Shown in pieces: positions 3,887-8,236 of a stretch of 12,824 nt of DNA; position 1 is the stretch's first letter, and each line of letters begins with the position of its first letter. The notes under the pieces were generated by a model that worked only from the letters and a program-made list of their open reading frames with translations, made no database searches and had not been told where the DNA came from. Made by a program: the position numbers and the translations under genes. The DNA comes from a bacterium (GTDB lineage Bacteria > UBP15 > UBA6099 > DSWB01). The DNA lies in NCBI GenBank assembly GCA_020061125.1, contig JAGUYV010000368.1, forward strand, positions 1-12,824, given 5' to 3'.

Positions 3887-3980
3887 CAGCTCCCTTTCGG
3901 TTGATCATTATGTTATTCAAGTTGTGGGTGGGAGAGCATGGTATGTGCAATGGGCGTCCAGAACCTAATATGGGAATCAA

Positions 3981-4973
3981 CTATCGGCTAATTTTTGTCT
4001 CTTCAAAAGATCTTATCTGTGAACAGGCTATCGAACGCTTCATCCATTGTATCTCCTCATCAGAAAACCCATCCCCCTGCAAATCAATTTCAAGGGGTCG
4101 AAATGAACGTAAAACCTCATTGCTACCTTCAAAAAAAATTGCGTTTATCTCTTTGAAGGCTAAATATGCGGAATCCTCCCTGCAATCCTTCATAACAAAT
4201 GACAATGGCCGTTGCTCTATAACGCCAGCTATGATTGTGTGATATTGAGATTTCGACTCTGGATTCAGCAAGTATCTCCTGTTGAACATCCACAGATCAT
4301 CTGTCTCCGCAAATGGTTCATTAATCATCTTTGTACGGAAATACTGCGTGGTTCCTATGCCTAACGGTTTATTATCCTTCCCAATGCAATAACTGAATGA
4401 TCTGCCATCCCAGTAAAAACCATAGCAATACTCCGAATCCCATGCAGAATGATTCTCTGTTCGCAGCAGAAGAAAGTCATCCGGCTTGATCTTGGAAGGA
4501 ATGATGTCCCCGCTTAAGACCCCATATACATCTTCGATTCGCCGTCCCATGATTCCTGTCAGCAATAATTGGAGATTATGATGCACTGATTCATCAAGTG
4601 GCGTGCGGGCTTGATAACCTGCGTATGAACTGTCAGAAATTTTCTCAATTGAAAGCGAAAGAGACCCTCTTCCGGCACATGTGGAGAGAAGTGTAGTTGG
4701 AATGCATGCTTCTCCCGAATCGCTAACCTTTTTGAATAGATCCTCAAGGACTTCCCGATGATCATGGTCTATGGCTCCGTGCCGGATTTCCAGCGGCAAA
4801 AAGTACTCAACGGGCAACCGGTAATGAGCGACAAAAAAAGAATCTTCTGTAAAAATCGCATTTATTTCACTTGAATTGCATGACGATACCGTAAGATGAT
4901 ACTTTGTTGTGCCGGCATGGCAATTAATTGTATTGGATATGAAAAAGATGATTGCGGCAAAGTAAATTCTCAT
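3981..4973 (-). CDS. Secreted protein of unknown family; candidate immunity to zincin mini-Rhs
   Basis: I do not recognise the family of this 330-residue protein. It begins with a signal peptide (MRIYFAAIIFFISNTINCHAG; likely cleavage near CHA-G), so it should act outside the cytoplasm. It contains several cysteines in the mature part and, near the C-terminus (about residue 300), a single calcium-loop-like segment DLQGDGFSDEE. Otherwise it has mixed alpha/beta character with no known catalytic motif. A GTG at 4979 overlapping the previous gene's stop would add MT- at the front; the ATG at 4973 is preferred because it directly begins the signal peptide. It follows the zincin mini-Rhs gene with only two bases between stop and start, which implies translational coupling. 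In polymorphic-toxin loci the gene directly after the toxin normally encodes immunity. That function is inferred from position and localisation only. It could equally be a further effector or an accessory factor. Confidence 0.75.
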   Translation of the reverse strand: MRIYFAAIIFFISNTINCHAGTTKYHLTVSSCNSSEINAIFTEDSFFVAHYRLPVEYFLPLEIRHGAIDHDHREVLEDLFKKVSDSGEACIPTTLLSTCAGRGSLSLSIEKISDSSYAGYQARTPLDESVHHNLQLLLTGIMGRRIEDVYGVLSGDIIPSKIKPDDFLLLRTENHSAWDSEYCYGFYWDGRSFSYCIGKDNKPLGIGTTQYFRTKMINEPFAETDDLWMFNRRYLLNPESKSQYHTIIAGVIEQRPLSFVMKDCREDSAYLAFKEINAIFFEGSNEVLRSFRPLEIDLQGDGFSDEEIQWMKRSIACSQIRSFEETKISR

Positions 4974-4975
4974 TG

Positions 4976-5698
4976 TCACATTCCGTTTAATATTTGCTCT
5001 ACCGCAGGGTTGCGATAAAAAAACCGGTTTGGATCGTATTCGTTCCCGACAATGCGATCCAACAGATACAGCGAATTATTGTTCAGGCAATTCATTCCAC
5101 AAGTACCCGGCGACGATATGATGGGCATGATGCTTTCTCGTCCAAAAACCTTCGAATATGTATCTTGGGCCCCAAGCCAATGTGTAAACTCATGTGAGAA
5201 AATATGTCCCTTGCCCAAATCGTGGTAATCAATGAAGACAGCTTTACCCATACATTCCGACCCATAATCTCTTATCTTCAACACATGATAATCCGAATAT
5301 TCTGAAGAATGTCCGGCGACGACAATGTCCGCATTTACATTGATTTTCCCGCTAACACTCCATGTGCGTTCGATATCATATTTGGCGGACATTGCAAACC
5401 ACCCGGCAGCGAACGGTATAAGCTCGAAGCTGGCATCTTCATTTGCCGCTACAGGATCAACCCGAATGGTAATATCTATCGAATATTCATCTCCATTTTT
5501 ACCAACATTAATCCACAATCCAAATGGATCCGTATTGGCAACAGGATTGTTCATTCCATAATTGTAAACATTTGTGCTCAAGAAGGCATCTTCCTGTAGA
5601 AATCGTCCTGTTGATGGATCATATTGCCTTGCGTGGACAATTGAAACAGATACCAGCAGAATGAGAACCGCCCCCATCAAAGAACCTCGCCATTTCAT
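4976..5698 (-). CDS. Mini-Rhs secreted effector with zincin (HExxH) C-terminal domain
   Basis: This 240-residue protein has three parts. Residues 1-23 are a signal peptide (core LMGAVLILLVSVSIV, cleavage after VHA). Residues 24-61 are the terminal Rhs-core tag (RQYDPSTGRFLQED, YNYGMNNPV, DPFGL). Residues 62-240 are a variable toxin-type domain. That domain holds HEFTHWLGAQD (169-179), an HExxHxxGxxD zinc site with H169, E170 and H173 and a likely third ligand D179, and a downstream ESIMP (188-192) resembling a Met-turn, so a metzincin-like peptidase is likely. Normal Rhs proteins have a shell of more than a thousand residues before this tag; here it is replaced by the signal peptide. The start is strong: AAGGAGA seven bases upstream. 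It follows the HEAT-like gene by 43 bases and is coupled to the unknown gene at 3981-4973. The target is probably an envelope or extracellular protein (inference). It could be a housekeeping secreted protease that merely carries the tag. Confidence 0.8.
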   Translation of the reverse strand: MKWRGSLMGAVLILLVSVSIVHARQYDPSTGRFLQEDAFLSTNVYNYGMNNPVANTDPFGLWINVGKNGDEYSIDITIRVDPVAANEDASFELIPFAAGWFAMSAKYDIERTWSVSGKINVNADIVVAGHSSEYSDYHVLKIRDYGSECMGKAVFIDYHDLGKGHIFSHEFTHWLGAQDTYSKVFGRESIMPIISSPGTCGMNCLNNNSLYLLDRIVGNEYDPNRFFYRNPAVEQILNGM

Positions 5699-5741
5699 GG
5701 CTGACTCTCCTTAGCGAGTAGTATACAGAATTCCCTTAAAT

Positions 5742-6242
5742 TCATTTTATTTCTAGTGTTTGTTCTCTGCCATCGTCAATTTCTAAATACCCGTATGGCA
5801 CATAATGGGCAGCACACTCGCGAATCTGTTTGTTTTCATCGTGCAGCATGTTTTTGAGATATTCATGCCCCCCCAACTCACCAATTGCATATGTGGTATT
5901 CTCTCGTATTACCAAATTGGGACTGTCGAGATTCCGCGCCAAAACAGGAATTGCCTCTTTCGAACAAGACTCCATTCTTCTTACAGCCTGAATTTGCGCC
6001 TTGCCCATTGATGTTCCGCAAACAGTTGTTAAGGGTTTCCCTTGCGAACCGACATATAAAACTCCAAATAAAGTAGCGATATCAATATCACCACAGAGTT
6101 CCGGAACTGCTTGAACTGAACTGATCATGATATTGTCAAAATGCAACACGCCGATTTCTTCATCATAGAGCAAAAAGGCGCCGAGTGGCCCCAATATGAT
6201 CAAAACAATCAAAAGCAATAAGAAGCTTTTTTTCTTAGTCAT
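5742..6242 (-). CDS. Membrane-anchored HEAT-like small protein; candidate immunity to lysozyme-like mini-Rhs
   Basis: The protein has 166 residues. A lysine-rich start (MTKKKS) and a long hydrophobic stretch (about 6-25) form an N-terminal membrane anchor, leaving the rest on the periplasmic side. The middle (about 30-90) has paired cysteines (ELCGDID, TVCGTS). From about 92 to 150 the pattern AIPVLARNLDSPNLVIRENT, then AIGELGG and IRECAAHYV, is that of one to two HEAT-like helical repeats. The ATG lies inside the end of the preceding mini-Rhs gene, overlapping by eight bases, so the two are translationally coupled. Position after a peptidoglycan-type toxin, together with membrane anchoring on the outside, is what an immunity protein to a wall hydrolase would need. 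That role is inferred from context; the sequence shows no catalytic motif. Confidence 0.75.
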   Translation of the reverse strand: MTKKKSFLLLLIVLIILGPLGAFLLYDEEIGVLHFDNIMISSVQAVPELCGDIDIATLFGVLYVGSQGKPLTTVCGTSMGKAQIQAVRRMESCSKEAIPVLARNLDSPNLVIRENTTYAIGELGGHEYLKNMLHDENKQIRECAAHYVPYGYLEIDDGREQTLEIK

Positions 6243-6945
6243 TGTCGTTCAGCGTCTCGCTTGCCTCTCGATAATACAAACAAAATCTGTTCCACCATAT
6301 TCTTTTGCCATTCCAATTTTTTGACAAAAAGAAGCGTAGCGATTCTTTATGGTTTTTGTTACTCATAATCTCAGATAATGATAACCCACGCAAGGAATCA
6401 GGATATGATTTGTCAAGAAGCCAAACAGCAATATATGTCTGCCTATGTGGATTTAGCATTTGTGTCCTTACCCAATTCACGTCATCTTTCGAAAACATTC
6501 GTGTACTGTGCCGTTCATAATAATCCATACCGTGTCTTATTTGCATTTGATACCAACCGATTGATCGCCGATCGCCATTATTGAATTCGGAAAGAACAAT
6601 GCTCCCAACGGTGTTGAGCTGATTAAGGAATGGAACACCAGCAGCATATCTTTCGACATACAATATCGTCGCCACCAATTCGGCTGAAATATTCTTGCTG
6701 TTAGCGGCTCCTAATATGGTTCCTTTTACGGCAGTTATCGCCTGTCTTGCGTCAACCGCATCTCTTCCGTCTGGATCAACATAATATACAGGATTTTGAT
6801 AAACATAGCCGTACAAGTTGACATCCCAACTGCTATCTTCTTGAAGAAAACGGCCTGTTGCCGGATCGTATTGTCTTGAACAAGCCTTGGATGACCATAA
6901 AAACAAAATGAGAAGCACTCCCAAATAGAAACCGCATCTGTTCAT
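6235..6945 (-). CDS. Mini-Rhs secreted effector with lysozyme/transglycosylase-like C-terminal domain
   Basis: The protein has 236 residues from the ATG at 6945. That ATG overlaps the stop of the upstream gene (ATGA) and has AGAGGA six bases before it; an upstream in-frame ATG at 6966 would bury the signal peptide. Residues 1-23 form a signal peptide (GVLLILFLWSSKA). A cysteine at 22 could alternatively be a lipid attachment site, though the lipobox is poor. Residues 24-61 are the Rhs terminal tag (RQYDPATGRFLQED, YGYVYQNPV, VDPDG). The C-terminal domain contains ISAELVATILYVERYAAG (E98 as putative catalytic acid) and SIGWYQMQI (128-136), the order and spacing found in lytic transglycosylase/lysozyme-like folds. 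It would therefore cut peptidoglycan glycan strands, probably in the periplasm of self or competitor. The domain match is by motif only. As in its neighbour, the large Rhs shell is missing entirely. Confidence 0.8.
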   Translation of the reverse strand: MNRCGFYLGVLLILFLWSSKACSRQYDPATGRFLQEDSSWDVNLYGYVYQNPVYYVDPDGRDAVDARQAITAVKGTILGAANSKNISAELVATILYVERYAAGVPFLNQLNTVGSIVLSEFNNGDRRSIGWYQMQIRHGMDYYERHSTRMFSKDDVNWVRTQMLNPHRQTYIAVWLLDKSYPDSLRGLSLSEIMSNKNHKESLRFFLSKNWNGKRIWWNRFCLYYREASETLNDND

Positions 6946-7907
6946 TTCTGATCCTCTTTCTCCCAAAAACCCTTTTGCAGCGTCTTCTGGTACTCTGCGT
7001 AATTTTCGTCAATCATTGGGGGCAGGCCCAGAGCCTCCGCCCTGTCCATGGTGTTATTGGCTTTCCACAAAAAGAAATCATAGCGATCCGGATTGGCCAC
7101 AGCCATATCATAATAGGCCGATGCAAGGGAGGCTTTAATTTCAGCCCCGGTTGGCTGCAGTTTGGCGGCGAGTTCCAAGTATCGGACTCCCCTCCTTATG
7201 TCTCCGTTCATGGCCCAATGGCGGCCGTTCTCGGCGATCATCTCTCCCATAAACTCCCGGTAGGTCAGGATTTTCATATATGCGCCGCTCTTGATTCCTG
7301 CTTCCGGAACTTGCATAACATAGATATATTCCTCGTCCGAGCTGTACCCGCCGGTAGTTGCCTCGATATTCCGCATCTCCAAACCAGGATCGTCGTATCT
7401 CAAGAAGATGTGCTGCGGGGCACTCACCGGGTATATGGGATAGCGCAATCTCTGGGCCACTGCAAGATACAGCAAGGGCATTGTCCAACAGCTTCCTTTC
7501 TCTGTGTCCATCAGACCGTTAATGGTCCGGTTTGATTTCTTTCTGCCAAGAATGTCGTCCTTGTCGTATTCAAAACCCAGTACCTTGAAAAAATATGTAT
7601 TCATGACCCGGATTCTGGTGTCTGAATCATCTTGCCCGATACGCGCCATCTTCACTTTGATATCTATGGCCATCATGTCCAGAAGCATGTTATACCGTTC
7701 AATATCAAGCTCTGGATAGTGTGTTTCTTTTGCGAAGACAAGCGCAAGCCAGCCTATGTCTATCTCGTCCTCTTGGAGAACAGCGATTTTCTCCATGTCA
7801 TTAATGGTTGCTATTTCCTTGACCGGATACTCATAGGGATATGCCAAAGCCGAACCCATCAAGAGCCACATGAAACAGAGCGCTGTTGCTTTTTTTAATA
7901 CAGTCAT
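6942..7907 (-). CDS. Secreted transglutaminase-like (SirB1/core2-type) protein with TPR-like tail
   Basis: The ATG at 7907 gives 321 residues starting with a clean signal peptide (MTVLKKATALCFMWLLMGSALA, cleaved before YPYEYP). The reading frame stays open to 8027 but the added part would bury that signal, and no better ribosome site is seen. Residues about 50-190 resemble the SirB1 / transglutaminase-core-2 family: a helical lead, then GSCWTMPLLYLAVAQRLRYP with C140, PQHIFLRY with H166, and the NIEATTGG segment (180-187). These are positioned as a Cys-His-(Asp/Asn) triad. A TPR-like helix pair (RRGVRYLELAAKLQP then AEIKASLASAYYDMAV) follows at about 245-280. It is the first gene of the minus-strand operon and overlaps the first mini-Rhs gene (ATGA). 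It could be a processing protease, a cross-linking or cleaving effector, or an unrelated periplasmic protein. The family assignment is moderate; the role is unknown. Confidence 0.7.
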   Translation of the reverse strand: MTVLKKATALCFMWLLMGSALAYPYEYPVKEIATINDMEKIAVLQEDEIDIGWLALVFAKETHYPELDIERYNMLLDMMAIDIKVKMARIGQDDSDTRIRVMNTYFFKVLGFEYDKDDILGRKKSNRTINGLMDTEKGSCWTMPLLYLAVAQRLRYPIYPVSAPQHIFLRYDDPGLEMRNIEATTGGYSSDEEYIYVMQVPEAGIKSGAYMKILTYREFMGEMIAENGRHWAMNGDIRRGVRYLELAAKLQPTGAEIKASLASAYYDMAVANPDRYDFFLWKANNTMDRAEALGLPPMIDENYAEYQKTLQKGFWEKEDQK

Positions 7908-8025
7908 GATAAAACGCTCAATATAGATGCTTTCAGGATACAACAAAGCAAGCCTTTTGTACAGATGGTTTTTTAACAAGGCCACGCTGAAACTCCAACC
8001 AAGGGCCATCTTTATGTGCGGTGAC

Positions 8026-8083
8026 ATTCCCAGATTCGTTTTATCTCGTTGTGATACCCCCCGTTTTGTTCATGTCTGGGAAT
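8026..8083. repeat. Nine-base inverted repeat at the island's right margin
   Basis: ATTCCCAGA (8026-8034) and TCTGGGAAT (8075-8083) are perfect reverse complements 40 bases apart. They sit where AT-rich island sequence turns into the GC-rich backbone. The arms could be a regulatory operator, an RNA hairpin or the remains of a recombination site. The sequence itself does not decide, and no matching copy was seen at the left margin. Confidence 0.4.
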
Positions 8084-8135
8084 TTGAAGATGCAGCCCGG
8101 GAGTTGCCGCGGCGGGGCCGGGCGGGCGCACGGCC

Positions 8136-8165
8136 TTCCTGTTGCGGCGCGGATGGCGTTATAAT
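8136..8165 (+). promoter_or_regulatory. Candidate promoter for response regulator-HtrA operon
   Basis: There is a consensus TATAAT at 8160-8165 with a weak TTCCTG (8136-8141) 18 bases upstream. The transcript would start near 8172, about 65 bases before the response regulator ATG. The exact TATAAT in GC-rich surroundings is the main support; the same hexamer precedes the M23 and MBL genes. Confidence 0.45.
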
Positions 8166-8236
8166 GTAATGATTACCAGGCGCACGCGGCCGGGGCGACG
8201 ATCCGGCGGCGGCGCGGAACCGGGATATTAAGCGTC

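Follow-up and report, generated by a model that had tools for sequence, protein, structure and literature searches.

Zhang et al. 2012 recognised 'unstalked' polymorphic toxins, short proteins that are exported by Sec and have no filamentous part (PMC3482391). The SitBAI cassette of Myxococcus xanthus encodes an accessory protein with a type I signal sequence, whose gene overlaps that of the toxin, an exported toxin and an immunity protein (PMC5562445), and for both SitBAI and the MafAB toxins transfer or secretion was shown experimentally (PMC5562445; PMC4287609). The tag that precedes the toxin in Rhs proteins has so far been regarded as part of a large shell, which it closes as a lid and in which it acts as a self-cleaving protease. 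Here we describe a 12,824-nucleotide stretch of DNA (the window: contig JAGUYV010000368.1 of assembly GCA_020061125.1, from a bacterium of the UBP15 lineage) in which two short proteins carry half of this tag directly behind a signal-peptide-like leader. They are encoded in a five-gene operon on the minus strand, which runs from a Transglut_core2 gene (6942-7907) through the first putative toxin (6235-6945), a HEAT-repeat protein (5742-6242) and the second putative toxin (4976-5698) to a last exported protein (3981-4979). We think it probable that this operon was acquired horizontally and is a cassette for Sec-exported polymorphic toxins, with the order transglutaminase-like accessory, toxin, immunity, toxin, immunity. 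Its layout, its recurrence, the conservation of the partner, the selection on the tag and the exchangeable ends are read from sequence; export, toxicity, immunity and an action of the transglutaminase-like protein on the tag are what we infer from them.

The two leader+tag proteins of the window align without gaps over residues 1-60, with 29 of 60 positions identical (22 of 37 within the tag alone), and beyond residue 60 their C-termini have no BLAST similarity to each other. The shared layout and the complete divergence behind it, both pointed out in a preliminary description of the locus, are therefore borne out. Both proteins score above the curated cut-off of 32.5 bits for the Rhs-associated core (TIGR03696; E 2.9e-9 for the first and 2.5e-10 for the second; bit scores in Table 1), so the match is not a chance one, and in a PDB search the tag matched Rhs, Teneurin, SGS1 and TcC chains. 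The tag is thus Rhs-derived as had been claimed, but it corresponds to no more than the latter half of the core domain, since the matches span profile positions 35-75 and 34-76 only. The YD-repeat shell is absent: the leader abuts profile position 34 or 35, and the whole proteins total 236-240 residues, the length of the first being counted from the ATG that overlaps the upstream stop. Both leaders look like Sec signal peptides, with a charged N-terminus, a hydrophobic core (best 9-residue Kyte-Doolittle means in Table 1) and fitting residues at -3 and -1, the small -1 residue standing directly before an Arg (V-H-A in the second protein, A-C-S in the first). The junction of leader and Rhs core falls immediately ahead of RxYDP, so that the mature toxin is predicted to have the latter half of the Rhs tag at its N-terminus.

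We searched for this layout in 60 relatives with TIGR03696, and then, with a profile of leader and tag together, in 147 genomes from a single class and in 386 diverse genomes. With four loci reached through the transglutaminase (below), fifteen leader+tag genes were found in nine genomes of four phyla. Thirteen of them lie beyond the window, in eight genomes of three other phyla, which speaks against a long Rhs gene broken here by an assembly error and against a family whose homologues are always full-length. The tag surveys gave three paralogues of 439-443 residues in one genome (G034), two genes in another (G467) and one each in G123, G111, G188 and G264. By kinship labels and phylum-level searches, the window's genome, G034, G264 and G467 belong to four different phyla; the G188 locus is the same as L174, from the uncultured Myxococcales metagenome-assembled genome VK_bin-1538, which places the class of G034 in Myxococcota. 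In nearly all members, cleavage is predicted to leave the Arg of RxYDP, or its counterpart, at the N-terminus (Ala followed by RWYDAGTGRF or by RYYDPEYGRF, for example). A recurrent class of short proteins with swapped C-termini, in which the tag is the predicted start of the exported mature protein, is therefore upheld across four phyla.

The class is uncommon, because most of the short Rhs-tag frames surveyed had no leader; shell-type Rhs genes strongly outnumber leader+tag genes. Among 80 loci returned by the leader+tag alignment from a contig collection, the layout occurred only at L174, and the others inspected were full-length Rhs genes or fragments. Short frames without a leader (in G001, G003, G029, G040, G055, G281, G387, G271 and others) were discarded as fragments or shell-type genes. 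Several leader+tag relatives score below the TIGR03696 cut-off.

A common N-terminal part followed by unrelated C-terminal toxin domains, as in polymorphic toxin systems, was found across the family. One G034 paralogue ends in a bacterial EndoU nuclease (PF14436, 36.6 bits against a cut-off of 25.3) and another in a MafB19-like deaminase (PF14437, 27.3 bits, just above the cut-off of 27). Two G034 paralogues remain alike for 185 residues behind the tag (64% identity) before diverging, which is the usual polymorphic-toxin pattern, and the C-termini of all other members are mutually unrelated. HExxH motifs occur in four members, the window included, and weak M91/SprT-like Pfam matches were obtained in G467. 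There, one metallopeptidase end occurs twice, once on an Rhs frame of 1516 residues and once on a leader+tag protein (L226/L081 pair; 67% identity over 177 aa). The G467 genes look like a separate origin, since they have no transglutaminase partner, lie among exported HEAT proteins and carry tags resembling those of the Rhs proteins of G467 itself. The second leader+tag open reading frame of G467 (L082, 2859-3239, plus strand) stops a few residues after the tag, without a toxin, among such HEAT proteins. G034 encodes a giant Rhs frame of 4932 residues (L028), whose tag (RWYNSGTGRFLSEDP...WLYANGNP) is closely like the myxobacterial leader+tag tags and, judging from this likeness, could possibly be their source.

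The most informative partner of the toxins, which the preliminary description had omitted, is the exported transglutaminase-like gene at the head of the operon. Its stop codon overlaps the ATG of the first toxin gene, and its product has a leader at the start and a tetratricopeptide (TPR)-like C-terminal part. Members of this subfamily were also found before the leader+tag genes of G034 (all three), G123, G188, G111 and G264, with the stop/start overlap of the window recurring at L037, L039 and L088, and 8 of 8 partner proteins matched the PF13369 profile. Used as the sole query, the transglutaminase alignment returned four further loci (three in G148, one in G198), each adjoining a leader+tag gene; at three of the four, the tag is too degenerate to reach the TIGR03696 cut-off. 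A Transglut_core2 gene thus lies directly upstream of a leader+tag gene at 12 of 12 subfamily loci in three phyla, against a leader+tag neighbour at 0 of 17 background Transglut_core2 loci, although 12 of 12 overstates the strength of the pairing because 8 of the 12 were found through the tag, and the unbiased figure, from loci found without it, is 4 of 4 against 0 of 17 (Fisher p 1.7e-4). The subfamily is well set apart: in the Myxococcota search its members scored at least 209 bits, against at most 103 for other Transglut_core2 proteins. Unrelated to these, three long Transglut_core2 proteins with a leader (L205, L206 and L207; 840-869 aa) have in common that the gene after them encodes a short membrane protein starting MIGAIE, which makes a conserved pair.

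The substitution pattern indicates that the tag is under selection at the protein level. Between G034 paralogues its synonymous divergence (dS) is 1.3-4.4 and its non-synonymous divergence (dN) 0.17-0.21. Over residues 24-37 of the window pair there are about 7 synonymous changes in 9.3 sites and 1 non-synonymous change in 32.7 (dN 0.03); over the full tag, dN is 0.39 and dS is saturated. Low dN at near-saturated synonymous sites means that the peptide was kept while the DNA drifted, which argues against a pure DNA-recombination anchor and against the passive remnant, in which toxin ends of dead Rhs genes were fused by chance to a leader and the tag, without a function, marks only their origin. 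Orphan Rhs and C-terminal cassettes are common, a shell copy of the same toxin exists in G467 and some members have broken frames, all of which such remnants would explain. They would not explain a coupled partner gene conserved across three phyla, or an identical position of the join in what seem to be two or more independent origins, and we regard them as an unlikely source of the family.

The part of the tag common to every member is its end, [YFW]-x-Y...NP...[DN][PA]xG, while the YDPxTGRF half is lost in three members. In RhsA and Tse5, the catalytic Asp pair lies in GRFxxxD and in DPxG (PMC8765631, PMC9637101), and the autocleavage consensus is PxxxxDPxG[W/L/F] (PMC8765631). One could propose that the tag is kept as a cis-acting Rhs aspartyl protease that frees the toxin. 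Both Asp residues are present in many members, including both window proteins, and in the second window protein the tag and the next residue fit the full PxxxxDPxGL consensus. However, the first Asp is kept in 11 of 15 members and missing in 4, as compared with 76 of 77 full-length tags (a contrast partly biased by the choice of full-length tags), and the Rhs/Tc site forms within the shell, which is absent here. The W/L/F after DPxG is also absent in most members, yet this residue does not separate them from full-length Rhs proteins (2 of 15 against 15 of 77), and we dropped it as a sign of lost autoproteolysis. Given the members without the first Asp, the tag is probably not kept as an autoprotease in general; its serving as one across the family as a whole is unlikely, and we give little credence to cis-cleavage as the reason for its retention. 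For three of the four phyla, the simplest reading is that the tag may be an adaptor for the exported transglutaminase-like partner.

The ends of the two window proteins are less readily placed. The second has the metallopeptidase motif HEFTHWLGAQD (HEFTH being residues 169-173, positions 5180-5194) and a weak, sub-threshold match to M6 peptidases (E 0.0093), so the zincin-like domain of the preliminary description holds at the level of the motif but not of the profile. Its lysozyme-like domain in the first protein did not find support in profile or PDB searches; the motifs VERYA and SIGWYQMQI were picked out by eye only. PDB searches with both C-termini gave nothing significant, and no homologues of them were found in viral contigs and plasmids. 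Single-sequence AlphaFold models of the two proteins were unusable and were discarded (predicted local distance difference test scores of 38 and 34).

Each window toxin gene is followed by an overlapping gene that is a candidate for its immunity gene. The first overlaps by 8 bp that of the HEAT-repeat protein, which has an N-terminal hydrophobic helix (Kyte-Doolittle 4.08) and, by position and domain, may be its immunity protein; Imm-HEAT is a known immunity class (PMC3482391). The second overlaps by 4 bp the gene at 3981-4979, whose product has no Pfam or NCBIfam match and is a candidate periplasmic immunity protein, judged by its position and leader-like start. Exported or membrane-anchored proteins after both toxins fit targets in the envelope. 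Downstream of the G034 deaminase relative, an overlapping gene without a leader gave a sub-threshold match (E 0.012) to Imm1, a known deaminase partner (PMC3482391), which fits a cytosolic target.

These ends and neighbours also bear on whether the proteins are weapons at all or, instead, hydrolases secreted for digestion or housekeeping. A peptidase domain, and possibly a lysozyme domain, could be of use in feeding, and several carriers belong to Myxococcota, a phylum that includes predators. But EndoU nuclease and deaminase domains sit on the same chassis, a candidate Imm1 gene adjoins one of them, and C-termini are polymorphic between paralogues. The distribution is moreover sporadic and the operon lies in a low-GC island, and we judge such a role improbable.

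Rhs effectors of the type VI secretion system (T6SS) are loaded in the cytosol. The leaders here would instead direct the protein to the periplasm, the core domain is only half kept, the YDPxTGRF half of the tag is gone in three members and the window's genome (513 contigs, 79% complete) shows no Rhs core other than the window pair and hence no sign of the shell elsewhere that the preliminary description had allowed for, so that a shell in trans, of Rhs or Tc-like type, into which the short proteins would be loaded by means of the tag, is the least probable reading, even with full-length Rhs genes in G034 and G467 and a core region that closes the shell in Rhs structures (PMC8765631).

The Sec-exported cassette that we favour has points against it as well. 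Neither window C-terminal domain has a significant family assignment, and the immunity assignments are based on position and weak or generic matches. In the window a single transglutaminase gene stands before the first toxin, leaving the second without its own, and such a gene is missing altogether beside the leader+tag genes of G467. The frame of the transglutaminase gene is broken in G198 and G111, giving it a decayed look, and that of the G467 metallopeptidase leader+tag copy is broken near its end. The discovery of most subfamily loci through the tag, noted above, counts on the same side.

The low-GC island has a GC content of about 0.43 over 4 kb, as compared with 0.63 on both flanks, and the Transglut_core2 subfamily is scattered in its occurrence (in 6 of the 195 genomes of the Myxococcota search and in 1 of 16 in the phylum of G264); together these fit horizontal acquisition. 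On the plus strand, 1328-2431 encodes an exported, sialidase-like protein with BNR repeats (PF13088, E 1.7e-35), which also matches the T6SS immunity protein Tli3 marginally above the cut-off (PF24316, 27.2 bits against 27).

Table 1. Features of the cassette and its surroundings in the window.
Feature	Position	Strand	Basis or remark
Exported Transglut_core2 (PF13369)/TPR-like protein, 321 aa	6942..7907	-	Pfam E 1.1e-13, orthologue alignment
Cys140	7488-7490	-	Invariant in the transglutaminase subfamily
His166	7410-7412	-	Invariant in the transglutaminase subfamily
Glu182	7362-7364	-	Third catalytic position; Glu in the subfamily, Asp in one
First putative toxin: leader, half Rhs tag and unrelated C-terminal domain, 236 aa	6235..6945	-	TIGR03696 37.3 bits
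Signal-peptide-like leader of the first toxin, residues 1-23	6877..6945	-	Hydrophobicity 3.34, (-3,-1) A-x-S
Half Rhs tag of the first toxin, residues 24-60 (RQYDPATGRFLQED...DPDG)	6766..6876	-	
Membrane-anchored/exported HEAT-repeat protein, 166 aa	5742..6242	-	PF02985 26.2 bits, above cut-off
Second putative toxin: leader, half Rhs tag and metallopeptidase-like domain (HEFTHWLGAQD), 240 aa	4976..5698	-	TIGR03696 40.7 bits
Signal-peptide-like leader of the second toxin, residues 1-23	5630..5698	-	Hydrophobicity 3.28, (-3,-1) V-x-A
Half Rhs tag of the second toxin, residues 24-60 (RQYDPSTGRFLQED...DPFG)	5519..5629	-	
Exported protein, up to 332 aa, signal-peptide-like start	3981..4979	-	N-terminal Kyte-Doolittle 2.74
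Low-GC island	3900..8170	.	Holds the entire five-gene operon; bounds approximate

We suggest the following scheme for the cassette. The accessory and the toxins would pass the inner membrane by Sec, and the exported transglutaminase-like protein could then recognise the half Rhs tag as a short adaptor and might process, crosslink, anchor or hand on the toxin, in a role like that of SitB or MafA. The C-terminal domain would attack the envelope of a neighbour cell (both window toxins) or its cytosol (the EndoU and deaminase versions), while the downstream protein would shield the producer in the matching compartment. More tentatively, and at somewhat less than even odds in our view, the family may form a distinct polymorphic-toxin export class. 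Toxins would be recognised, and chemically processed or attached, by an exported transglutaminase-like enzyme via a 40-residue Rhs-derived tag, so that their ends could be exchanged between the giant shells and a minimal carrier exported by Sec.

A recurrent half lid without its shell, selected as protein and adjoined by a conserved exported enzyme, means that the tag is capable of a second job. In practical terms, the subfamily Transglut_core2 gene is a simple search key, because the protein encoded next downstream offers its C-terminus as a candidate new toxin. The toxin domain that G467 carries both with and without a shell makes the necessity of the shell for action testable. The cassette would also add a third layout to the accessory-toxin-immunity cassettes of Neisseria and myxobacteria and extend them to other phyla.

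Like SitBAI, it has an overlapping upstream accessory gene, a short exported toxin with a swapped C-terminus and a downstream candidate immunity gene, encodes neither a shell nor a dedicated apparatus, and occurs partly in the same phylum. SitA toxins, however, are lipoproteins with N-terminal domains of their own and no reported Rhs tag, and a SitA-type lipobox is absent from the leader end of both window proteins (by reading only). SitB has no detectable domain homology, whereas the accessory here is a Transglut_core2 protein, and the present cassette is also found in non-myxobacterial phyla. MafA/MafB/MafI of Neisseria similarly combine a signal peptide, a conserved N-domain and a variable toxin C-terminus (PMC4287609; PMC3482391) with a conserved exported partner upstream and immunity downstream, and a MafB19-type deaminase is also carried by the leader+tag chassis. 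The N-domain of MafB is instead DUF1020 (PF06255), to which the window proteins gave no Pfam match; its partner is the lipoprotein MafA, and the system is restricted to Neisseria. With full-length Rhs, TcC and Teneurin-like shell proteins the cassette shares the RxYDPxTGRFxxxD...NPxxxxDPxG tag directly before a swapped toxin (PMC8765631, PMC9637101, PMC13018210), but it has no YD shell, only half of the core domain, a direct join to a leader and no T6SS or Tc parts.

Transglutaminases have been linked to Rhs toxins before: in the transglutaminase-RHS toxins of Zhang et al. 2012 (PMC3482391), an inactive transglutaminase is fused in cis ahead of the RHS repeats. In the present cassette the transglutaminase has its own gene, retains Cys and His and is paired with a half tag that lacks the shell, and we found no description of this pairing in the open-access literature. 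Because short secreted polymorphic toxins are already known (PMC3482391; MafB; SitA), the cassette is a variant of that kind and not wholly new. The preliminary description had taken the locus for a candidate undescribed system; the shell-less half-tag layout paired with a transglutaminase is apparently new.
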